This document shows, piece by piece, positions 5,969 to 19,244 of a stretch of DNA of 64,000 nt. How positions within the stretch are numbered: the first letter of the stretch is position 1; the number at the start of each line of letters is the position of its first letter. Source of the DNA: an uncultured Spirochaetales bacterium (GTDB taxonomy: Bacteria > Spirochaetota > Spirochaetia > Sphaerochaetales > Sphaerochaetaceae); NCBI GenBank assembly GCA_944392695.1, contig CALXXN010000002.1:1-64000 (forward strand), given 5' to 3'. The position numbers were made by a program, and so were the translations under genes. Under the pieces are notes generated by a model. That model saw nothing but the letters and a program-made list of their open reading frames with translations, did not search any database and was not told where the DNA came from.

Positions 5969-6319
5969 TCAGGCGTTTGCCAGGATCATCAGCGCTGTGA
6001 TGAAGCCGAAGACGACAAGACCTTCAGCAAGTGCGATGAAGATCAGTGCGTTGGAGGCGATCTCAGGACGCTCGGAGATGGCACCCATGGCAGCGGAACC
6101 GACCTTCGAGATGGCCATGCCTGCACCAAGCGCGCCCATGCCGAATGCGATAGCGGCAGCGATACAGACCCAGGCTGTCGTGTACTGACCTGCGTCAGGG
6201 CCAACTGCCTCATCAGCGGCATACAGTGCCGGTGAGAAGACGAAGGCGCATCCCACCAGGAGCAGGATGGTGCACAGAAGCGAGAGACGGACCTTTCTTG
6301 TGAATGCGTAACTGGTCAT
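5969..6319 (-). CDS. atpK: V-type ATP synthase subunit K (membrane ring proteolipid)
   Basis: A 116-residue proteolipid. I chose the ATG at 6319 because GGAGG lies 5-8 bases upstream; an in-frame extension to 6394 would overlap subunit I. It has a leader-like hydrophobic segment (residues ~11-34) and then one hairpin: helix ~47-71, glycine-rich, and helix ~90-116 with the ion-binding Glu99 in ALAEGLVVFG. It is therefore a single-hairpin proteolipid, not the duplicated four-helix type of Enterococcus NtpK. Gly100 and Phe104 occupy positions that are Ser/Thr and Tyr in classic Na+ rings, which hints at proton use, but this is weak. Confidence 0.93.
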   Translation of the reverse strand: MTSYAFTRKVRLSLLCTILLLVGCAFVFSPALYAADEAVGPDAGQYTTAWVCIAAAIAFGMGALGAGMAISKVGSAAMGAISERPEIASNALIFIALAEGLVVFGFITALMILANA

Positions 6320-6347
6320 GATTGACCCTCCATTGATCGATTTATGT

Positions 6348-8324
6348 TCAGCTGCGGCTGCCATCAAGCCCGACGGGCTTGAAGGCGATGCCACGGCCTG
6401 TGAAGTACTTTGTGAAGAACTCGTAGTAGTTCAACCTGAGCGACTGTATGCCTGCGCTGAGCCCTTCAAGTGCGATGACAAGGACATTGCCAAGGACCAT
6501 GATCAGGATCTCAGCGATGATGTTGCCAGTCATCGAGGCCATGTCCTCGAAGGCTGTCATCAATGAGACGTGGGCGATGCCAAGTCCTGCCACACGCATG
6601 AATGAAAGCGTGTTGGACAGGAAGCTCGAGAAGATCTCCAGCACATTGACAAGACCATCCATGACCGTGTCCATGACGATCTTGCCCATCTTCTCCTCCT
6701 CTCCAAGGACGCGGTGACGCCAGATGGCGGTCACAGGGCCCTTGACGAAGAGCATCAGGACGCCGAAGCCAAGTCCTGCATAGAGCCATGGCCAGGGCGG
6801 GAAGTCCTGGTAGCCACTGTCGACGAAATAGTAGCAGGCCCTGATCCCCAGTGCGTAGATCAGGCCACCGACCAGGCCGTTCTTGTCAAAGACGAGCTCA
6901 AGCCAGCGTTTCTTACGCACAAGGTTGATCCAGTTCAGCACAAGGCCGGTGAAGATCACGATGATGCCGAAGGCGATCGTGATTCCAAGTATGTCGTAGA
7001 CATCCTGGACCAGGCCTTGGACAGCCCCACCATTGACGACAGCGTGGTAATTGAACCAGAGCGCCGGTATCCAGGAGTAGCCGAAGGTCGACCCGAAGAG
7101 GAGGCCGCCGAACATGCTGGCCGGTCCAAGAAACACCAACAGCGAGCAGAGGTAACGGCTTATCAAGCCATCCTTGGCCATTGGGTGTGTCTTGTAATAG
7201 TGCTTGCCGATAATGCCGATCAAGAGGAGGATGAGACCCTGCCCCAGGTCAGCGAACATCAAGGCGAACATCGCTATGTAAGCTACGGCTGTGAATGGTG
7301 TCGGGTTGATCGAACCATACTCCGGTGTGCCATAGTTGCTCACCATCCTCTCGAAGGGTGCGAGGATCCTGGCAGATGAGACGCTTGTCGGAATCTTGCT
7401 GCGTTCGACCTCGCTGTCCTCCGTCCATTCGATGATGCACTTGCCATGGCTGGCCTGGACGATCAGCTCCTCGACCCCTGGGGCTTTGGCCGATGGGACC
7501 CAGCCGGAGAAGACCGTCGTGCTCTTCGTATGTGAGAAGCAGCTTTCGACCTGTCCGCTGAGCTCATTGACACGCAGGCAGATCCACATCTTCTCGAGGC
7601 TGTCCTTCTTGGCCAGGATGCGCTCACGGACCTGTGCTGAAACAGCGTCAACTGCCGCCTGGAGCTCATCATGACGCTTTGCAAGCGCGGCCTTGGCGAC
7701 CTCACGGACCTCCTTCTGGCTGACAGGCTTCTCTGTCCAGGCGAAACGGTCGAAGACCTCATCGACCTTTGAAGAGTCCCTCTTCAGTGTCAAGGAGACA
7801 AGGGCGCCATGCCCGTCGTCAGCAAGTATGCCACCAAGAGGGGCCATGCGTGCCTTGAAGTCCTCAAGATGGGCCTTGTCGACAGTACCACAACGCAGGT
7901 CGAGGTAGTCCTCCTCCTTGTCCTTCACGTAAAGCGAGAGCTCGTCAATGGCAAGGAGCTTCTGGGAAAGCATCCTCTGCTCATCCCTGAGGTCTGACAA
8001 CGAGCTTGAGAGCTTGTCGAGACGACGGCGGAAATCATCGAGGTCGGCCGGACCAACATCATCGAGGTCCTTACGTCCTATCGCAGGCAGCAGCATGCCT
8101 GCCTGCTTCATCAGGTTCTCACAGCGCGAGCGCACATCGCTGAAGGCCGCCTGTGGGACGTCCTCCTTGTGGCTCGACAGCCTGGCCGCCTGGTCAGCCT
8201 GGAAGTCGGCGATATGGACGAACTCCATCACGCCCTCTTCCAGGAGGGCCTTGACGACAGCATCCACATAACCATCCAGGACGACGGCTGTGAGCATCTT
8301 CATCTTTTGTGTGAACAGGCTCAA
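6348..8324 (-). CDS. atpI: V-type ATP synthase subunit I (membrane stator, a-subunit like)
   Basis: The 658-residue protein has a soluble N-terminal half with coiled coils and a C-terminal half with about seven to eight membrane segments (for example MFALMFADLGQGLILLLIG and the late region SFLSNTLSFMRVAGLGIAH, which carries the conserved arginine). It forms the ion half-channels against the K ring. The start is a TTG overlapping the TGA of subunit C (TTGA), with GGAGGG at a good distance; the next ATG is seven codons in. Confidence 0.95.
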   Translation of the reverse strand: MSLFTQKMKMLTAVVLDGYVDAVVKALLEEGVMEFVHIADFQADQAARLSSHKEDVPQAAFSDVRSRCENLMKQAGMLLPAIGRKDLDDVGPADLDDFRRRLDKLSSSLSDLRDEQRMLSQKLLAIDELSLYVKDKEEDYLDLRCGTVDKAHLEDFKARMAPLGGILADDGHGALVSLTLKRDSSKVDEVFDRFAWTEKPVSQKEVREVAKAALAKRHDELQAAVDAVSAQVRERILAKKDSLEKMWICLRVNELSGQVESCFSHTKSTTVFSGWVPSAKAPGVEELIVQASHGKCIIEWTEDSEVERSKIPTSVSSARILAPFERMVSNYGTPEYGSINPTPFTAVAYIAMFALMFADLGQGLILLLIGIIGKHYYKTHPMAKDGLISRYLCSLLVFLGPASMFGGLLFGSTFGYSWIPALWFNYHAVVNGGAVQGLVQDVYDILGITIAFGIIVIFTGLVLNWINLVRKKRWLELVFDKNGLVGGLIYALGIRACYYFVDSGYQDFPPWPWLYAGLGFGVLMLFVKGPVTAIWRHRVLGEEEKMGKIVMDTVMDGLVNVLEIFSSFLSNTLSFMRVAGLGIAHVSLMTAFEDMASMTGNIIAEILIMVLGNVLVIALEGLSAGIQSLRLNYYEFFTKYFTGRGIAFKPVGLDGSRS

Positions 8325-9412
8325 TCCAGTTCCCTCCTGATCTCATCCTCACCCAGGTCATAGTACTTTGCCGAGAGCACTGACCTGATGGCCACATCCT
8401 GGCTCCTGCACAGTGAGAGGTAGCTGAGTGACGTACCTATTGTGAAGGGGTCTCCGACAAGGATCGAGGAGTATTCAGCCCTCCTCTTGTGTCCAAGCCA
8501 TGACTCGATCTGCAATGTACCATAGGCAAGTTCACCATGGGCCCCCTTCAATGTGCCGCGTTCATCCATCTCCTTCAAGAGGCCACCAACCTCAGGATAC
8601 TTGCGTTGGATGAGGGCACGGGCGGCAGTGAAGTCAAGGCCGTCCTGTCCTATTTTCCGTTCCAAGGTCTGGTAAAGCGAACCGTAAGGCAGGAGTATGG
8701 AGGCAAGCATGGCACCCTTGAGGCCATGGAGGTAGCCATAACGGATCAGGTTGAGGACGTTCTTCAAGTCGACGTCGACTTCCTGTATGCGTCTTGCGAC
8801 CTCCCTGTCCGGTCCATCGAGGTGGTCGATCGCTGAGAAAAGACGGCGGAACCAGAGCTTGTCCAAGCCCGTCTCCAAGGGGAAGAGCCCGCTGTTCACG
8901 ACCTCCTCCTCACCATGCTCATTGAACACCTCCTCATAAGGAGTGCCCTTGAAGGCCTTCAGCATGTCGCTGTAGGTCATGGCATTCAATATGCGCGTCC
9001 AATCGATGTCATGGACAATCTGGTCACGGCAGACATAGGCCGCACGGTAACTGAGCTGGTGGTGCATGACAGAGCCAGAGTACCAGAGGCGGACTGCGTT
9101 CTTGATGTTCTCAACCTCGCTCTTCTCGAGCAATGTGCTGATGAAGGCCGCAGGGGTGCCATCAAGCGCCTTGATGATCCCTCGGTGCTCATCGACCTCG
9201 TCCATGAAGATGCGCAACTCAAGCTGCTGCAGGTCACCAGTCCGCTGCCAGACCTGTGCCAGGTCATCGTGTGGCCCACCAGCCAGGACCGCCACGGCCT
9301 CATTGAGGTTCGGAGCCTTGATCATCGCGTCTATGACATCAGACGAAACCAAGAGGCCGATCCTGGCCCTGAGCTTCGCATTGATGTAGGAATAGCGGGA
9401 AACCCTATCCAT
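8321..9412 (-). CDS. atpC: V-type ATP synthase subunit C
   Basis: A 363-residue all-helical AC39/NtpC-type subunit that connects the central stalk to the membrane ring. The N terminus MDRVSRYSYINAKLRAR is typical. I chose the ATG at 9412 because AGGGGAAGTGG immediately precedes it; the frame stays open to 9442. It overlaps the 3' end of the G/H-like gene by 8 bases and the start of subunit I by 4. Confidence 0.9.
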   Translation of the reverse strand: MDRVSRYSYINAKLRARIGLLVSSDVIDAMIKAPNLNEAVAVLAGGPHDDLAQVWQRTGDLQQLELRIFMDEVDEHRGIIKALDGTPAAFISTLLEKSEVENIKNAVRLWYSGSVMHHQLSYRAAYVCRDQIVHDIDWTRILNAMTYSDMLKAFKGTPYEEVFNEHGEEEVVNSGLFPLETGLDKLWFRRLFSAIDHLDGPDREVARRIQEVDVDLKNVLNLIRYGYLHGLKGAMLASILLPYGSLYQTLERKIGQDGLDFTAARALIQRKYPEVGGLLKEMDERGTLKGAHGELAYGTLQIESWLGHKRRAEYSSILVGDPFTIGTSLSYLSLCRSQDVAIRSVLSAKYYDLGEDEIRRELD

Positions 9413-9746
9413 CCACTTCCCCTGGAAGGTCTGTCGAGACAATCAGTGATACGATGCGCCTCACAGCCTCATCCACCGAGGCCTTGTCGACAAGCGGAGA
9501 CCTGGAGGCAGACAGCCCCGCCCCCTTCTCCTCAAGGGCGCGCACACGCTCCTCCATGACACGGGTCGCATCTGCGACAAGGGCGTCGGAACGGCGGCGC
9601 TCCTCATCAACGGCCTTCTTGACGATGGCCGAAGCCTCTCCCTGGGCGTCAAGCACGATCTTCTGGGAGCGCTCTTCAGCCTCCTTGATGATGCTGTCAG
9701 CCTCATCCTCGACACTGAGGATCCTGTCTATCACTTCGCTTCTCAT
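9405..9746 (-). CDS. V-type ATP synthase G/H-like peripheral stalk subunit
   Basis: A short, highly charged protein (113 residues from the chosen ATG) that is almost entirely a predicted coiled coil (IIKEAEERSQKIVLDAQGEA and onward), as in the G/H subunits that pair with subunit E. It is the first gene of the operon, where this subunit is often found. The start is uncertain: ATG at 9746 has GGTGG upstream, but in-frame ATGs at 9767, 9764 and 9782 exist. Confidence 0.72.
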   Translation of the reverse strand: MRSEVIDRILSVEDEADSIIKEAEERSQKIVLDAQGEASAIVKKAVDEERRRSDALVADATRVMEERVRALEEKGAGLSASRSPLVDKASVDEAVRRIVSLIVSTDLPGEVDG

Positions 9747-9807
9747 CAAATCCACCGCACCCATCATCTTGCTTTGCCACATAGCGTGTCAAGCTGACGC
9801 AGGAAGA

Positions 9808-9833
9808 AGGCTTCCTCCATAGGAGGAAAGCCT
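9808..9833 (-). terminator. Hairpin at the end of the usher gene
   Basis: Aggcttcctcc (9808-9818) pairs with ggaggaaagcct (9822-9833) with one bulged base. It overlaps the usher stop codon and separates the usher from the ATPase operon. There is no T run, so termination is uncertain. Confidence 0.35.
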
Positions 9834-12800
9834 ACTGGATGGAGAAGTCGGCTGCGATTTCCTCTGCGCTCATCGGTGGGAAGAGCTCACTCCAGAAGGT
9901 GGCGGAATCCGTCATCCTGACAGGTGAGAGCTCAAGATGGCCTGAGTAGTCAAGGGCCCAGGCGGGGATGTCCTCGTCAAGCCTGGCCCCCTCGATGTCA
10001 TAGCTGTAGGTGACTATATCTGCATTGTCCGCGCTGAAATCAATCGTCCCATAGTCGAGCACCCGGATCTCATCACCTTCAAGCTCCCAGACTTCGAAGT
10101 GGACAGCATACCAGCGTCCCTGCCATTCGACATCGAAGACATACTCACCAGGGGCCGCACCCGAGATGATGAAGCGGCCTTCCTGGTCTGCGAAGAGGTA
10201 GAGGGCTGGATCCGCCACAAGGCTGACAGTGCCATCTTCCGCATATTCCAACCTGTAGACCGGTGACGAGAACGTATCCTGCACTTCTCCATCGATGGAG
10301 ACGATACCTGTGACAGTGTACTCCTGGGGGACAGTGATCCTTACAGCGAAACCAGTACGGTCACCTGTCTCAAGCTCATAGGGGAAGGTCTGGGTCTCTG
10401 AGAATTCATCATCAGGTGTCACATAGGTGACGATGTTGTTGCGCTGCCAGCTCCCAAGGGAGTTGTAGACAGCGGTGCCGAAGAAGGTGTCGACATCCTG
10501 TGGGGAACCCTGGTTGGACCGTGCGACCTGGATATGTGAGCCTCCCAGGCCACCCTGGGGCCTGATCAGGATGAAGTTGTCGCGCACAGAACGCGAAAGC
10601 CCGAACAGCCCGCCAGCGAAATAACTGGCAGTGCTCGCTGACACGGAAGCCGACATCCTGTCGTAACGGTCGTAGAAGGACGTACGGGCACTGAGCGAGT
10701 ACATGTCACCACTGTGGTACCAGCCTGCTGAGAGCGAGTGATCCGTGATATCACGGAAATCAAGTCCTGATATGTTGGCAGAGAAACTGTCACGGCTACC
10801 GGCGTTGAAACTCGCCGAGACACTTGAGGAACCAGAGAGGTTCGTCGTCCATGAAGCTCCTCCCCTGCCTCCGAAGGAGATGGTCGCGCTGATGTAGCCT
10901 GTCACTGACACTGGTCCCCTTTCGAGTGATGTGAAGCCCTGTGACAAGGTGATCCCACCAGAAAGGTTGAACCCACTCACGGGGGAGAAGCCAAGGCTGA
11001 GGCCTACCCTCCAATCAGGATTGAGGAAGTCATAGTCATCGACCGCCAGGTTCGTATTGAAGCTGTAGCGCAGGATGCCAAGGCTTCCTGAGAACGAGAG
11101 CCTCAAGGCCAGCTCATCACCGGCGAAGTTGTTGTAGACGCTGTTACCCCAGCTCAAGGACATCGAAAGTCCTCGGAAGGCCTTGGTGCTGACAGGGAAG
11201 CTGTGGTCAAGTCGGAAGAAGAGGTAGGGATCATCAGAGGTGACACCCGCCCTCCTCGCGCTGCGCTCGACCCTGGTCTCACCAGTGAAGGTCGTGACAC
11301 CAAGCTTGGAAGCACCCCTCAGTGAAAGTGACAGCTCGGCCCTTGGCCGCACAGTGCCATCCGATGAAGGAACCGTTCCTACAGAGAAATCACTCATCAG
11401 TGTCAATTCATCGGTGAGGCCTATGTCCTGGTACCAGCTCAAGACCATGTCGTTGAAGTGGTAGTCGTAGTAATAAGAGGGGCTGACACGCAGCAGCAAT
11501 CCCGTCGCACTGTCCTCATCTCCGACATCGACAGTGGTGCGTCCAAAGGTCAGCGAACCTCCGAAGAGCGTCTCACCCTTGGCCAGGAGCTGTGAGTCAT
11601 AGGCCATGTCGAAGTACTGGTGGGTCGAGATAGAGGCCAGGGACTGCCTGACAAAGGGGTCGCTCATGTCAGCATCCTCTGGAATCAGGCGGGTCGGGGT
11701 CACGATGATCTCGACTTCGTTGTAGCCGCTGTCGAAAACGAAGTCCTGGACCCTGTAGTTGCCTGGCTGAAGAGTGCGGGAGTAGATGAGCCTGCCATTA
11801 CGTATGACCTGCAGGAGGGATTCCTCGACGACAGTGATGTACTCGCGGTGGCTGTTGCCTACACGCTGGACATTGCCATAGCTGTAGTTCTTCTCGAACT
11901 GTATGCCGACAGGTGTGCCCGAATTCGACTGACCGAAACCATAGACATTGCCCCAGGACAGCCTGATGCCCTCCTCAGGGAAGTCGTAGAAGAAGCGGTA
12001 GTTGTTCCAATTGAAGAAGAAGGAACCGTTCCTGACACCAAGGTTGTAGTAGAAATCAAAACCAACTGGGCCGAATGTGAGGTAATTGGCCAGCGAGAGG
12101 CTGACGGAATAAGACCATACAGATGAGCTGAAGGCCCAGTCGAAGCTTGTGTAGAGGTTGTACTGGGTCCTCCAGGTGAAGAATGAAGGTTCAATCCTCT
12201 CAGCTCCAGAAAGGCTGAAGACGCGTCGGTTGAGGGAGGTCGTCGAGAGTGAGATCACACGCTCAGGCATGTCATCGACAGAGAAGGACATGTCAAGTGT
12301 GAACTCAACCTCGTCAAGTGTCACTGTGACGCCATTGTCTGAGAAGTGTGAGATCGGGATATACTCCTCCGATGTGTACCCGATCAACCTGGCATAGGCG
12401 TCCTCTGTCAGCAGGGTGCCAAGCAAGTCTGAAAGAGCCTCGCGTGGAAGGAAGCGTCCACCGTCCTGGAAAAGGACCTCGATGTAGCCGAGCTGCTCGC
12501 CATCGACCGAGAAGAGGAAGTAATAGAGCCCATCCTCATACTCAAGCGTGTCCTGTCCTTGCACGAAGAAGGAGGCGAAGAAGTCATCATCGTAGACAGG
12601 TGTGTCGCTGCCCTGGATGATCACATCCTCCTGTGTGGCCACAGCTCCTATGAAGACAGGAGGCTGCGGTACAGGCACGGCGTCAACCTCCGCCAAGCCT
12701 TCATCAAGCACCTCAGTGGTTGTCTCAGCCTCAGTGGTTGTCTCAGCCTCAGTGGTTGTCTCAGCCTCAGTGGTGGCTTCTGCCTCAGTGGTTGTTTCGA

Positions 12801-13215
12801 CTTCAGTGGTGGCATCAACTCCAGTGATGGCTTCGACTTCAGTGGCGGTCTCAGCTTCGGTGCTGGTTTCCGCTTCAGTGGCAACCACTGTACCAGCAGA
12901 GGCCACGGTCTCAACAGCAGGAGTTGTGCCTGGATCCTCAGGAACCAGTCCTGGAAGCTCCCCTGATGCCTCTGCCTCATCCGTTTGAGGGACATCCACT
13001 GCGACATCAGGATCATATACTGAGGAGGTATCCCTATCATCTATTGACATGGGGAGGTCCTGTCCCCCAGCGGCAAGCTCCACCGGCGTGGAAGGCACGG
13101 CAGCGGCGTCATGGCGGAACAGATACCAGGTGAAGAAGGCAAGGAAAGACAGGAAGACCATGACCAGCAAGGTCATCAGTCCAACCCGGAGGAAGCGCTC
13201 TCGGCTCTTCTTCAT
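9832..13215 (-). CDS. FimD/PapC-like outer membrane usher with anchored low-complexity N-terminal extension
   Basis: The 1127-residue protein has the order: a basic, strongly hydrophobic N-terminal segment (9-32); a ~150-residue acidic, Thr/Glu-rich linker with TEAETT repeats (~110-165); an usher N-terminal domain (FLPREALSDLLGTLL to the MSFSVDDMPERVISL strand); a long beta-barrel rich in alternating Ser/Tyr/Phe; a plug-like region (NYRVQDFVFDSGYNEVEI); and C-terminal usher domains (FILIRPQGGLGGSHIQV). Ushers normally secrete and assemble chaperone-bound pilins across the outer membrane. Classical ushers are about 800-850 residues with a cleaved signal, so the extension is odd. A PapD-like chaperone is just upstream; no pilin gene is visible. 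Confidence 0.82.
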   Translation of the reverse strand: MKKSRERFLRVGLMTLLVMVFLSFLAFFTWYLFRHDAAAVPSTPVELAAGGQDLPMSIDDRDTSSVYDPDVAVDVPQTDEAEASGELPGLVPEDPGTTPAVETVASAGTVVATEAETSTEAETATEVEAITGVDATTEVETTTEAEATTEAETTTEAETTTEAETTTEVLDEGLAEVDAVPVPQPPVFIGAVATQEDVIIQGSDTPVYDDDFFASFFVQGQDTLEYEDGLYYFLFSVDGEQLGYIEVLFQDGGRFLPREALSDLLGTLLTEDAYARLIGYTSEEYIPISHFSDNGVTVTLDEVEFTLDMSFSVDDMPERVISLSTTSLNRRVFSLSGAERIEPSFFTWRTQYNLYTSFDWAFSSSVWSYSVSLSLANYLTFGPVGFDFYYNLGVRNGSFFFNWNNYRFFYDFPEEGIRLSWGNVYGFGQSNSGTPVGIQFEKNYSYGNVQRVGNSHREYITVVEESLLQVIRNGRLIYSRTLQPGNYRVQDFVFDSGYNEVEIIVTPTRLIPEDADMSDPFVRQSLASISTHQYFDMAYDSQLLAKGETLFGGSLTFGRTTVDVGDEDSATGLLLRVSPSYYYDYHFNDMVLSWYQDIGLTDELTLMSDFSVGTVPSSDGTVRPRAELSLSLRGASKLGVTTFTGETRVERSARRAGVTSDDPYLFFRLDHSFPVSTKAFRGLSMSLSWGNSVYNNFAGDELALRLSFSGSLGILRYSFNTNLAVDDYDFLNPDWRVGLSLGFSPVSGFNLSGGITLSQGFTSLERGPVSVTGYISATISFGGRGGASWTTNLSGSSSVSASFNAGSRDSFSANISGLDFRDITDHSLSAGWYHSGDMYSLSARTSFYDRYDRMSASVSASTASYFAGGLFGLSRSVRDNFILIRPQGGLGGSHIQVARSNQGSPQDVDTFFGTAVYNSLGSWQRNNIVTYVTPDDEFSETQTFPYELETGDRTGFAVRITVPQEYTVTGIVSIDGEVQDTFSSPVYRLEYAEDGTVSLVADPALYLFADQEGRFIISGAAPGEYVFDVEWQGRWYAVHFEVWELEGDEIRVLDYGTIDFSADNADIVTYSYDIEGARLDEDIPAWALDYSGHLELSPVRMTDSATFWSELFPPMSAEEIAADFSIQ
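12712..12880 (-). repeat. 18-bp in-frame tandem repeats in the usher gene
   Basis: Units of 18 bases (plus-strand form gtggttgtctcagcctca) recur about four times nearly perfectly and more loosely on either side, encoding the six-residue repeat TEAETT. Because the unit is a multiple of three, copy-number change would alter linker length without breaking the frame. Confidence 0.8.
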
Positions 13216-13266
13216 GAAATCCCCCTCAACTCATCTGTTTTACAGTCTTCCCTCTCAAGAAGGGGC

Positions 13267-14016
13267 TCACTGGTTGCGTATATCGAAATCGTAGCTGAGC
13301 GAGGCCCTGTAAGAGGAACCTCCCTCGAGACCTTCAGGGAAGGGTATGGACTTGGTCCAAGTGGCTCCTGCGAGTATGTTGGAGCCGGAGATCCCTGGAA
13401 GGGCATCTGAGCCAGAAAGCGTGACAGTGTTGCCAGAGGCGTCCTGGAGCGTCAGCTGTGCATCATAGAGGATCTGGTGGACATTCCCATTATTCGTCAG
13501 CGTGATGGCAAGGGACCCGTCCCCATTGTCCACGACACCTGCCACGGCCACGTTCTCCCTGATTTCAGATGGGAGCACATAGGCGGAGGAACGGAAGACA
13601 TAGAGGAAGTTGAACATGCTTCCAGAGGAAGATGTCCTGCCTTGGGAATAAGGAATCTGCTCGGCGACGATCCTGAATGAAAGCTCCTGAGGCAGTGTCC
13701 TGGGTCCACGGTACTGGACACGGACGATCTGTGAGCTCTGGGGCTGGATCAAGATGCGTGATGGCTGGATGTTGAAGTATCGTGAAGCGTCAGAATTGAC
13801 CTCGTTCCCCTCAGCATCCTGGGTGCGGACCAAGGCGCTGACAACGACTGCGATTATGTCATCGCTGTCATTGGTGATTGTGAAAGTCTTCGTCGCATCC
13901 GGGCCTGACACATCAAAGTTCTGAACCAAGGGCTCGAACTGGAAGGCGAAGAGCGGGCTGCAACATGCTGCCAGAAGCAGGATCAATGATCCGAGGAAGT
14001 TAAGCTTATGTCTCAT
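13267..14016 (-). CDS. PapD-like periplasmic pilus chaperone
   Basis: A 249-residue secreted protein with a signal peptide (MRHKLNFLGSLILLLAACCS) and two immunoglobulin-like domains. The first matches pili assembly chaperones: a strand with alternating hydrophobics, then YFNIQPSRILIQPQSSQIVRVQYR, where chaperones carry the P-x-x-x-x-(I/L)-x-P and subunit-binding basic residues. The start at 14016 is set by GGGG just upstream. It lies 51 bases before the usher and has its own promoter, so chaperone and usher probably form a two-gene operon. The client subunit is not in the window. Confidence 0.85.
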   Translation of the reverse strand: MRHKLNFLGSLILLLAACCSPLFAFQFEPLVQNFDVSGPDATKTFTITNDSDDIIAVVVSALVRTQDAEGNEVNSDASRYFNIQPSRILIQPQSSQIVRVQYRGPRTLPQELSFRIVAEQIPYSQGRTSSSGSMFNFLYVFRSSAYVLPSEIRENVAVAGVVDNGDGSLAITLTNNGNVHQILYDAQLTLQDASGNTVTLSGSDALPGISGSNILAGATWTKSIPFPEGLEGGSSYRASLSYDFDIRNQ

Positions 14017-14041: not shown

Positions 14042-14070
14042 ATTATAATCTGGCGGATTGCGATTTGCAA
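14042..14070 (-). promoter_or_regulatory. Sigma-70 type promoter of the chaperone-usher operon
   Basis: On the minus strand: -35 TTGCAA (14065-14070), 17-base spacer, -10 TATAAT (14042-14047). The predicted start is about 20 bases before the chaperone ATG. Confidence 0.7.
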
Positions 14071-14191: not shown

Positions 14192-14204
14192 CCTGACTCA
14201 GATA

Positions 14205-14278
14205 TCGGGCTGGCCGGATTTGAACCGGCGACCCCAAGTCCCCCAGACTTGTACGCTAAACCCCTGCGCTACAGCCCG
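14205..14278 (-). tRNA. tRNA-Pro (anticodon GGG)
   Basis: The minus strand folds as a complete cloverleaf: acceptor CGGGCTG/CAGCCCG with C1 and discriminator A as usual for proline, D arm GCGC/GCGT, anticodon stem CAAGT/ACTTG with loop CTGGGGG (anticodon GGG), and T arm GCCGG-TTCAAAT-CCGGC. It is 74 nt; CCA is not encoded. Confidence 0.95.
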
Positions 14279-14290
14279 AGTCACTCAGGC

Positions 14291-15264: not shown

Positions 15265-15314
15265 CATTTATGTCACATGCGTGTGCGAGCATGCGGGTGG
15301 AGGTCTTCAACTCT

Positions 15315-17072
15315 ATGTCAAAGGGAAAACTTACAGCACTCATACTGTGCCTCATATTGGCAATGCCTCTTGAAGCCGCATCCCGCGGAAGCGAATTCAT
15401 CGACCTGGACTCAGGCTTCTACGAAGATTTCGACACACTTGCCTCATCCCTTGGCATGGTCGTCAGCAGGACGCGCCCCTACACAAAGGCTGAAGCACTG
15501 CCCTATCTGGAGGAGATGGGCAGGCGCCCCATGGACCAGGGACAGCATGTGCTCTATGAACACCTTGTAGAAGAAGTGGACCTGCAATCAGGTGATGGCG
15601 TGTTCTCATTCAACTTCTCAGGCACACTCAACCCACAGGCCTATGCACATTCCGACCGCTCATTCAGTGACCAGGCCATAGAATACACCAGGGATCCTGA
15701 AAGTGGTGAGCTCATCGTCGCACAAGGGAGCTACAGCTACAGCCCATTCAACCTCTATTCATCCTGGCCCGGGATGGAGGTCAAGGACTTCGTCGATATC
15801 GACCTGGCGATCAATGTCATGGACAACATCACGCTCTTCTTCCAGCTGCCGGTCACTAATGTGCGACATACGAAGACCGCCTTCGGCTCGCGGTATTTCA
15901 TGACGAACATCCCGATGCTGGCCAATCCACTGAGTTTCCAGTACGAGGACTTCAACATGAACTTCCCATACAGGGCCCACCTCTCCGCTGGGGATTCCTG
16001 GTGGTCCTTGCTGATCGGACGCGACAAGTTCGACTACGGTGGAGGCATCTCTGGCAACCTGGCAGTCGACAAACACCTCGAATACCACAACGCACTCTCG
16101 CTCTCCTTCTTCTCAAAGACCTTCAAGTACACCTTCTTCCTCTCCTTCCTGCCACATCCAAGCCAGTACATCGTCCTTGATGACAGCACTGACAGCAGCT
16201 ATGGCTACGACCTGGCCTACGACCAGGGCCAGGACGCCTTCACAGGGACCAAGGTCTATGTCTCGCACCGTTTCGAATGGACGAGCAGGACGCAGAAGAG
16301 CCGCATCGCGCTCAGCGAGAGCGTCATGTACCAGGATGACGGAGGACTAGACTTCCAGTTCCTCAACCCCATGCTCTTCCTGCACAACCTCTACACGGCA
16401 GGCAATGCGAACTCATTGCTCTCACTTGAGTGGGAGTACGCCTTCACAGAAGGAGTGGTCCAGAACATCTCACTGCTGATTGATGACTTGAACGTACCAG
16501 GAGAGAAAGAGAGCGACGGGGACAACACCAAGCCATCCGCCCTTGGCTTCCAGTACAACATCAGGACCTCGCATCCTGTCGGGCCTGGCATCATCACCTC
16601 ATCCGCCGAGGTGACGCTGACGACAGACAGCCTCTACCTCTACCTGAGGGAGGATGCTGGCAAAGACATTCCCGACACATACCCTATAGACTTCACGGCT
16701 GCGATCCGCAACATGAGGACGGGCACCGGGGTCTACGATGTGACCTTCCTGGGCTATCCCTATGGAGGTGGTGTCATCAACGCCCTTGTCGGACTCGGCT
16801 GGCATGTGCCTGGTGCTTACTCCCTCGAGTGGAGCTTCAACTACATCATGAGGCGGAACATCACACCCTTCACCAGGATCCGGGGTTCCCAAGCTGGAGA
16901 CAATCCCGTGATGCATTCCTTCATCACGACGCTCAGTGCCGATTGGCATATCACAAAGGATTTGACGCTCTCACCCTCCCTCACCTACATCCATGTGCTC
17001 AACTATGCCCATGCGCCTGGTGACAAGCGTGGGGATGTCCAGCTGGCGGTTGGTGCCAGCTACAGCTTCTGA
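15315..17072 (+). CDS. Putative outer membrane beta-barrel protein
   Basis: A 585-residue secreted protein from the ATG at 15315, with signal peptide MSKGKLTALILCLILAMPLEA. The mature part has many alternating aromatic strands and ends in GASYSF; a C-terminal aromatic residue is the usual barrel-insertion signal. General resemblance is to Wzi-like capsule/outer-membrane barrels of spirochaetes and Bacteroidota, but I do not assign a family. GGAGG lies 11 bases before the chosen start; the frame is open from 15270. The gene converges on and overlaps the acetyltransferase gene by 13 bases. Confidence 0.75.
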   Translation: MSKGKLTALILCLILAMPLEAASRGSEFIDLDSGFYEDFDTLASSLGMVVSRTRPYTKAEALPYLEEMGRRPMDQGQHVLYEHLVEEVDLQSGDGVFSFNFSGTLNPQAYAHSDRSFSDQAIEYTRDPESGELIVAQGSYSYSPFNLYSSWPGMEVKDFVDIDLAINVMDNITLFFQLPVTNVRHTKTAFGSRYFMTNIPMLANPLSFQYEDFNMNFPYRAHLSAGDSWWSLLIGRDKFDYGGGISGNLAVDKHLEYHNALSLSFFSKTFKYTFFLSFLPHPSQYIVLDDSTDSSYGYDLAYDQGQDAFTGTKVYVSHRFEWTSRTQKSRIALSESVMYQDDGGLDFQFLNPMLFLHNLYTAGNANSLLSLEWEYAFTEGVVQNISLLIDDLNVPGEKESDGDNTKPSALGFQYNIRTSHPVGPGIITSSAEVTLTTDSLYLYLREDAGKDIPDTYPIDFTAAIRNMRTGTGVYDVTFLGYPYGGGVINALVGLGWHVPGAYSLEWSFNYIMRRNITPFTRIRGSQAGDNPVMHSFITTLSADWHITKDLTLSPSLTYIHVLNYAHAPGDKRGDVQLAVGASYSF

Positions 17073-17808: not shown

Positions 17809-19059
17809 CTACTCTCCACCCTGCCTCACATTGCTGTGAGCCTGGGGATGGAGCTTCTTCCCGCTCAAGACGCCTGATGGCGCCAGTATCAGCGAGCTAT
17901 CCCCGCTAGCCCAGCGGTTCAGGATGTCTTTACCCTCATCCAGCAGGTTCTTACAACTGTTCTTGTCCCTGTCGTGATGTGTGCCACATGACTGGCATGT
18001 CCATTCACGGTCAGAAAGCTCCAGGTCGTGATTGACCTCATGGCACACTGAGCATCGCTTGCTCGAAGGGAAGAACCTGTCGACCTTCACAAGTATCTTC
18101 CCTCTGTCATTCAGCTTGTAGGTGAGCATGTTCCTCAGTTGTCCATAACCGTTGTCGTATACGGCCTTCCCGAAGTTGAGGGACTGCGACATGTGCTGCA
18201 GGTTGATGTCCTCCACAATGACGGCATCAAAGTCCCTGGCCACATCATGGGACAGCTTGTGCAGGAAGTCCTTCCTCCTGTTCCCCGCCTTCTCATGGAG
18301 CTTTCCGATCCTGTGCTTCTGCTCCCAGTAGTTGGCAGAGCCGTACTGCATCCGTGAGAGCTTCCCCTGCTCCTTCGCAATCCCCTCCTCGAGGTTGCGG
18401 TACCAGCAGATGGTGTCTTTCGAGATGTCGTTCCCACCAGATGCGGAGACGACAAGAGAGGGCATCGAATAGTCGAAGGCTTCGACCTTCTCGAATTCCT
18501 TCTTCATCCCTATCGGTTCCATCTCCACATCAAAAGTGAGCGATATGAAGAACTTGCCGCTTGCCGTCTCCTTGACCGTTGCATGCTTCATCCTCCAGCC
18601 AGCCGGTATGTCCCGGTGGAGTATGATGCGCACAAACCCGAGCTTGGGCAGCTTGATATGGTTCTGCATATCCCCCTTGTGGATTATCTCGATGTTGTTG
18701 TTTATCCAGTTGGTGGTATATGAACGCTTGTCTTTTCCCTTTGCCCTGAATTATGGAACCTTTCCCTTTGGGAGGAGTTTCCTACATGCCTGGTTGAGGT
18801 TGAGCTGCGTGTTTATCAGGGCCATCGAATCGACTTCACAGAGGAATGGGTTGTCCTTCTTCAGATGTGCAGGAGTTGTATTGAGGAGCTTCCCCTTGTT
18901 CAGTGCCTCAAAGCTTATCCGCTCATCAAGAAGATGGTTCCAGACGAAGCGGCAGCAGCCGAAGGTCTTCCAGATGAGGATCTTCTGTCCATCATCGGGC
19001 TTGATCCTGAACTCCATGCACTTGGAGATGACGATGGCCTCAGCCTTTTCTTCCATCAT
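17809..19059 (-). pseudogene. tnpB: IS200/IS605-type TnpB with an in-frame TAA
   Basis: A TnpB (OrfB) RNA-guided nuclease gene read in one frame, interrupted by TAA at 18751-18753. Before the stop lies the N-terminal domain (MEFRIKPDDGQKILIWKTFGC, then LNLNQACRKLLPKGKVP); after it the same frame continues FRAKGKDKRSYTTNW and the whole catalytic half. RuvC residues are present: Asp in VEAFDYSM (~18473), Glu in DAVIVEDINL, Asp in HHDRDKNS, and a four-Cys zinc ribbon (CSVCH, CQSCG). The stop stands where TnpBs usually have Lys (P-K-F), so AAA to TAA is the simple explanation. Start is 19059 or 19017. No TnpA is present. Full length without the stop, about 400-416 residues, is normal. Confidence 0.85.
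17825..17840 (-). other. Small hairpin at the 3' end of tnpB (possible element-end/omega-RNA structure)
   Basis: The minus strand reads CTCACA-GCAA-TGTGAG, a perfect 6-bp stem with a tetraloop within the last codons of tnpB. In IS605-type elements the right end and the guide RNA scaffold overlap this position. Assignment is tentative. Confidence 0.3.
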
Positions 19060-19061
19060 GA

Positions 19062-19244
19062 CCCTCTCCCTGGGTGCGGATGTATTCCTCCAGGACCTTC
19101 CCCGGAAAGGCCAGGGAGTATGAGGAGGAGAAGCTGCGCCTTGCAAGGCTGTACAAGGATGACAGGAAGTCCTACACGGCATCCAAGGCCGGTATCATAG
19201 GCCGCCTGATACAGGAAGCACGGCGCTGGAAGTCCCAGGCATGA
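19062..19244 (+). pseudogene. GrpB/UPF0157 family protein, 3' fragment
   Basis: An open stretch in one frame, ending at TGA 19242-19244, encodes PSPWVRMYSSRTFPGKAREY, then EEEKLRLARLYKDDRKSYTA, then SKAGIIGRLIQEARRWKSQA. This fits the C-terminal end of GrpB-family proteins (the W-x-x-FRDYLR-x-P-x-x-A-x-EY ... DDRKSYTxxK ... EARxWK region). It is on the same strand as the 5' fragment at 17686 and is separated from it by the tnpB element, so the two look like halves of one gene that also lost its middle. Confidence 0.6.

Follow-up and report, generated by a model that had tools for sequence, protein, structure and literature searches.

What does a chaperone-usher pair assemble when no pilin gene lies beside it, and what is the role of a long extension in front of its usher domain? 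Both questions are raised by a locus in the window, by which we mean the entire 64,000-nucleotide stretch analysed here, from an uncultured bacterium of the Sphaerochaetaceae. The initial annotation, made from sequence alone, described a two-gene locus with its own promoter and an usher bearing an uncleaved-looking hydrophobic segment and a linker that might join the inner and outer membranes. Our analysis points to a divergent chaperone-usher pathway of the Sphaerochaetaceae, with an usher that spans the inner and the outer membrane and works for subunit loci dispersed in the genome; we regard this as likely, with the spanning in vivo remaining an inference.

The two-gene description held, as both open reading frames (ORFs) are present on the minus strand (Table 1). 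The flanks were also as described: a tRNA on one side, the sole match of an Rfam scan around the locus, and on the other V-ATPase genes (5969-9782) that directly follow the usher on the same strand. Of the promoter attributed to the pair, we saw only a promoter-like consensus match. No pilin-like gene was found near the pair, which upholds the earlier description for the locus itself. The neighbourhood also encodes a large beta-rich, outer-membrane-like protein (15270-17072) without a Pfam or NCBIfam name; similar-looking beta-rich proteins stand by the chaperone-usher genes of two relatives (L033:12868-14799 and L042:12590-16056). An IS605 OrfB/Cas12f1-like TnpB protein is encoded at 17809-18669, and the ORF at 18751-19182 upstream of it may be the N-terminal part of TnpB, out of frame.

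Table 1. Features of the chaperone-usher locus and of the subunit-type loci of the same genome (positions without a prefix are those of the window).
Feature	Position	Strand	Basis or remark
V-ATPase subunits C and I	downstream of usher		Pfam matches: C, PF01992, E 1e-36; I, PF01496, E 2.3e-35
Terminator-like hairpin	9811-9829	-	between usher and V-ATPase genes; consensus scan; not evidence of function
Usher gene	9832-13215	-	ORF list; 1127 aa, ATG start
Usher pore, plug and C-terminal domains (about residues 323-1127)	9835-12249	-	predicted: AF2, Foldseek, VIA
Usher N-terminal domain (about residues 224-322)	12250-12546	-	predicted: AF2 and VIA alignment starting at 224
Disordered acidic linker, residues 35-223 (189 residues)	12547-13113	-	pLDDT below 50; sequence not conserved
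Degenerate 18-bp tandem repeat coding for the TEAETT-type part of the linker	12711-12881	-	Tandem Repeats Finder
Putative uncleaved inner-membrane helix, residues 2-33	13117-13212	-	AF2 helix 2-32, block pLDDT 68/91/85
Chaperone gene (product: periplasmic PapD-like chaperone with Sec-type signal peptide)	13267-14016	-	ORF list; 249 aa counted from downstream ATG; PapD_N match
Promoter-like TTGCAA-17-TATAAT	14042-14070	-	before chaperone; consensus scan, 10/12 matches; not evidence of function
tRNA-Pro(ggg)	14204-14279		flanks the chaperone-usher pair on one side
Eight-gene array, contig 20	L052:8666-14593	same strand	signal-peptide proteins of about 185-235 residues
Four-gene cassette, contig 12	L069:6209-9557		tip-like ORF is the last gene; third gene resembles c14 (by eye)
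Small signal-peptide ORF, contig 1	L070:9130-9510		behind four palindrome copies; possibly a further minor subunit
Palindrome sites, window genome	L069:9812; L052:11416; L052:11491; L052:13894; L070:8903-9136

The chaperone is recognised by PF00345 (PapD_N) with an E-value of 2.9e-7 and 31.0 bits against a cut-off of 23. It adjoins the usher on the upstream side in all 20 loci read in detail (L032-L051), and a QIVRVQYRGP stretch is conserved across the 20 aligned chaperones. Profile searches of the window genome returned a single usher and a single PapD_N gene; a full fimbrial operon with another chaperone and usher, which would have refuted the earlier reading, was not detected with the usher and PapD_N models. 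In some Sphaerochaeta loci a 192-residue gene lies upstream of the chaperone; we considered it as a pilin and rejected it, since its sequence looks like that of a TetR-type regulator.

The usher is far more divergent. Against PF00577 it scored 16.4 bits, below the cut-off of 27.1 (a threshold for sequence similarity rather than a functional criterion), leaving it without any Pfam match over cut-off; 6 of 21 relatives matched this family at E 0.01 or better. The usher has no NCBIfam name either, nor do the tip protein and the c14-like subunit described below. The usher profile likewise met only weak unrelated matches among the sequences of solved structures (best E 0.015), and a comparison of folds was therefore needed. 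An AlphaFold2 (AF2) model, built on an alignment of 46 ushers from the 56 full-length references listed, reached a mean pLDDT of 78.8 and gave, in order, a helix, a disordered linker and a confident usher after residue 223. Foldseek ranked FimD and PapC first (3rfz_E, FimD, E 1.3e-30). VIA-align 2 placed residues 224-1067 of the model on FimD 9bog (Z 20.8, 701 residues, rmsd 7.3) and scored Z 21.5 against 9fw9 (625 residues, rmsd 7.4). The structural prediction thus shows a complete usher fold, with an N-terminal domain, a large plugged beta-barrel and C-terminal domains. Because the alignment with the solved structure starts at residue 224, the extension occupies the place of the signal peptide in an ordinary usher. 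Just ahead of the N-terminal domain, F216 is invariant in the 46 aligned ushers.

The model also bore out the hydrophobic segment and the acidic character of the linker; its length, first put at about 150 residues, is closer to 190 disordered residues. The scored part of the linker carries a net charge of -39 in 174 residues, 23.6% of them D+E. We then asked how widely the extension occurs. A profile search found the usher in 104 of 139 Sphaerochaetaceae genomes, the members without it including G001, G004, G006 and G076, and a scan of named genomes returned 172 stretches, of which 68 loci were kept, 67 with spirochaete titles. One locus labelled Candidatus Phocaeicola (L106) carries a spirochaete-type operon and is probably a binning error. 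The usher N-terminal domain was present in 75 distinct ORFs. A hydrophobic helix precedes it in 72 of them and the other three are cut at a contig edge, so that every one of the 72 complete relatives has the extension, one or more hydrophobic helices followed by a linker. Recurrence in every complete relative examined excludes a gene-calling accident. The linkers are 98-382 residues long (median 142.5), negatively charged in every case (median -29) and, pooled, contain 13.7% P, with a Glu-Pro repeat run in one relative (L007). They align poorly with one another: length and character are kept, and sequence is not.

Hydrophobic helices were counted on the Kyte-Doolittle scale (window 19) with a cut-off of 1.6 in the survey of 75 ORFs or 1.9 in a stricter count; ORFs were taken from stop to stop, and start codons are therefore approximate. 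The stricter count gave a single helix for 47 of the 72 ushers and two to five helices for the other 25 (5 with two, 13 with three, 1 with four and 6 with five). This division coincides with two kinds of locus. In the linked kind, an operon downstream of the usher encodes signal-peptide proteins, namely c19, c14, a tip-like protein of about 420-580 residues, c12 and several c11 paralogues. The unlinked kind, to which the window belongs, has no subunit genes nearby; in a sample of 20 loci, 14 of the 16 unlinked ones, from several genera, have V-ATPase genes immediately after the usher and on its strand, as against none of the 4 linked loci. All 47 loci without linked subunits encode a single helix and all 23 with linked subunits encode two or more; two three-helix ushers ending at a contig edge were left out of this count. 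A maximum-likelihood tree places the ushers with linked subunits in a single clade (SH-aLRT 99) nested among the extended ushers, and sets ten conventional ushers of other Spirochaetia families apart from all of these (SH-aLRT 100). Several outgroup branches are long, and the internal order of the outgroup is unsure. These ten ushers (L149-L158; ORFs of 786-905 aa) have no extension and, by eye, a signal peptide near the usher domain. Replacement of the single helix by two to five in one well-supported clade, the same clade whose subunits are operon-linked, is thus shown by computation.

The missing-pilin puzzle was solved by searching the rest of the genome, which encodes subunit-like genes at loci unlinked from the usher. 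A profile of 19 operon subunits matched contig 20 at E 4.1e-7 over nearly its full length, within an eight-gene array (Table 1). A tip profile built without the window genome found a 427-residue ORF on contig 12 at E 1e-76; a first tip profile, made from four linked-subunit rows, had missed this tip, and the broader one recovered it. Similar cassettes lie at unlinked places in other genomes of the window's genus. The tip family is present in 67 of the 139 genomes, 63 of which also have the usher, compared with 104 of 139 overall. This co-occurrence does not allow for common descent, and 13 of the searched genomes contributed rows to the tip profile. No tip-profile match was found in 41 of the 104 usher genomes. 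Most Sphaerochaeta-type genomes lack such a match and carry other arrays; the profile of one of these arrays matched every one of the 13 genomes tested from that genus, and it had no match in the usher-less G001, G004, G006 and G076, nor in the window genome.

Whether these proteins are pilins is less certain. We modelled one linked (operon) subunit with AF2 (pLDDT 84.9). Its residues from about 20 to 50 are predicted to be poorly ordered, which is compatible with a free donor strand, donor-strand exchange itself being inferred. The best structural matches of the model were mostly pilins, with CfaE at their head on a middling score (Z 7.4, rmsd 3.3, 118 residues), and Foldseek placed a plant lectin first (E 9.1e-4). 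The seven linked subunits of L042 matched no Pfam family at E 1, and the subunit profile had no match among the sequences of solved structures. A pilin-like fold of the linked subunit is supported by this one model, at middling similarity.

The dispersed loci of the window genome share a palindrome, ACTTATGNCATAAGT, which precedes all three subunit-type loci, and ACTTATGTCATAAGT stands ahead of the array genes and the four-gene cassette. Allowing up to one mismatch genome-wide, we obtained 11 strand-hits, corresponding to 8 distinct sites, all of them at these three loci (contigs 12, 20 and 1); a reversed control gave no sites in this genome. In the sister genomes G008, G013, G014 and G015 the palindrome lies 98-100 bases upstream of the chaperone, and it is also found near unlinked subunit genes of sister genomes (L053-L056, L058, L071). 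It precedes the chaperone at five operon-type loci (L042/L093, L101, L105, L111, L119). Pooled over 2.01 Mb of loci there were 33 matches, compared with a mean of 0.4 and a maximum of 4 for 199 permuted-arm palindromes. The pooled loci overlap (L004, L033 and L077, for example, are the same place), and the 33 are therefore not independent sites, and the permuted controls may repeat each other. The palindrome occurs within 400 bases of 14 of 104 chaperone rows, which are redundant. The window itself contains no site with up to two mismatches; the chaperone-usher promoter here is therefore unmarked, and co-regulation with the subunits rests on the sister species.

In the mechanism we propose, the usher would insert in the inner membrane through its uncleaved N-terminal helix, the leash, acidic and disordered over about 190 residues, would cross the periplasm, and the C-terminal part would form the plugged pore in the outer membrane. 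After export by the Sec route, pilin-like subunits would be carried by the chaperone to the N-terminal domain of the usher, located where the leash ends, and donor-strand exchange would build a fibre with the large tip protein at its end. Subunits would come from at least two unlinked loci, the four-gene tip cassette and the eight-gene array, with the one-gene locus as a third candidate, all grouped by the palindrome. That the helix stays uncleaved, that the chain is inserted in the two membranes simultaneously, that subunits assemble by donor strands and that the window usher uses these subunits are all inferences. A bolder reading, towards which we lean by a narrow margin, is that one polypeptide sits in the two membranes simultaneously, with a helical inner-membrane domain of one helix in most members and several in one clade, and works as a leashed hub for the secretion of pilin-like subunits from dispersed, co-regulated loci.

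The rival that survives best is a long cleaved signal peptide, with the linker left as a free periplasmic tail that perhaps binds chaperone-subunit complexes or peptidoglycan. Ordinary ushers have cleaved signals, and the window usher has A-A-A after its helix, one of only 4 among the 47 single-helix ushers with an A-x-A there (5 of 47 with another window). The predicted helix does not decide the matter, as AF2 models true signal peptides as helices too (residues 3-15 in the subunit model); only helix length is informative. In this respect the hydrophobic core of the single-helix ushers has a median of 23 residues, against 17 in the chaperones (signal picked in 19 of 20) and 17 in subunit-region ORFs (58 of 63). 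The scarcity of A-x-A also argues against cleavage, although it is a weak measure, being met by only 2 of 19 chaperones. A stronger argument comes from the 25 of 72 relatives with two to five helices, which a single N-terminal cleavage could not remove. We therefore consider this rival unlikely, and that the window helix stays uncleaved and the linker unclipped is the likelier case, inferred without experimental data and with the protein's own A-A-A counting against it. The cleaved signal that would have refuted the initial annotation is thus opposed by most of the evidence, without experiment, and its suggestion of a segment and linker joining the two membranes is supported, the spanning in vivo being inferred.

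Much less probable is that the main task of the usher is to tether the outer membrane to the inner one by its leash, with pilus assembly coming second, in cells whose wall synthesis is reduced. In favour, the PF00905 transpeptidase has one match in 18 of 22 family genomes and none in the other four (G006, G047, G049, G131), compared with 3-6 matches in eight other Spirochaetia genomes, and the linker is kept without sequence conservation. However, the usher-less G001, G004, G006 and G076 are equally transpeptidase-poor, and for this reason wall poverty is kept only as a rival explanation. A flexible linker of ~190 residues would also be long for bearing load, which is our inference, and pilin-like subunits co-occur with the usher. 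Finally, the idea that the inner-membrane domain powers or gates the usher, for example by ion-gradient coupling as in TonB and with the neighbouring V-ATPase involved, draws on the V-ATPase linkage at 14 of 16 unlinked-kind loci and on the multi-helix N-terminal domains of the linked-subunit clade, but is very unlikely given that no V-ATPase adjoins the 4 linked loci sampled, a terminator-like hairpin separates it from the usher in the window, 6 multi-helix N-terminal domains had no convincing Pfam match, and conserved linkage by itself shows no function.

The preferred reading, a leashed usher serving dispersed subunits, can be set against known systems. Like FimD and PapC of type 1 and P pili, the window usher has a predicted N-terminal domain, a plugged beta-barrel pore and C-terminal domains, with a PapD-like chaperone adjacent. 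Unlike them, it is only ~12-15% identical, remains below the Pfam cut-off, places a helix and a leash of ~190 residues before the N-terminal domain, and has unlinked subunits.

The many paralogous small pilin-like subunits and the larger tip candidate recall archaic chaperone-usher pili such as Csu and CupE, whose CsuE and CupE6 tips have two Ig-like folds (PMC10104325). CsuA/B was among the structural matches of the subunit model (Z 5.4), and the GxYxxxLxLxV-like C-terminal ends of the subunits resemble those of spore-coat-U pilins. In contrast to archaic systems, the usher is extended and the seven subunits have no Pfam family; nor do the aligned subunits show, by eye, an outstanding conserved cysteine pair, unlike CupE1-type pilins (PMC10104325). 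As the Pfam scan at E 1 did not place the seven linked L042 subunits in the spore-coat-U (SCPU) family, we do not file the system as archaic. The range of archaic systems given in PMC4654587 and PMC10104325 is Proteobacteria, Cyanobacteria and Deinococcus-Thermus. The conventional Spirochaetia ushers (L149-L158) belong to the same class as the window usher, match the usher profile mostly from about profile position 207 onward, and in most cases have neighbours with spore-coat-U-like C-termini; the window-type usher adds the leash that they lack.

The literature searched, mostly open-access, gave no description of an usher with an inner-membrane anchor or of a Sphaerochaeta usher. The nearest parallels for the leash lie outside the pathway. 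TonB, as inferred for the extended usher, has an N-terminal inner-membrane helix and a long linker to the outer membrane, and GspB is an inner-membrane protein reaching an outer-membrane pore (PMC9239104). No TonB C-terminal domain is present in the window usher by Pfam or NCBIfam matches, its C-terminal part being the usher. In TonB and GspB systems the pore is a separate protein, whereas the extended usher would hold helix, linker and pore in one chain. If this is true, a single polypeptide combines an alpha-helical inner-membrane anchor with an outer-membrane beta-barrel and has to be routed through both SecYEG insertion and BAM folding, offering a natural system for studying tethered-barrel delivery, limits on periplasm width and coupling of an usher to the inner membrane. 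It would also add to the chaperone-usher pathway an extended usher family in the Sphaerochaetaceae, scattered subunit cassettes and a testable operator.
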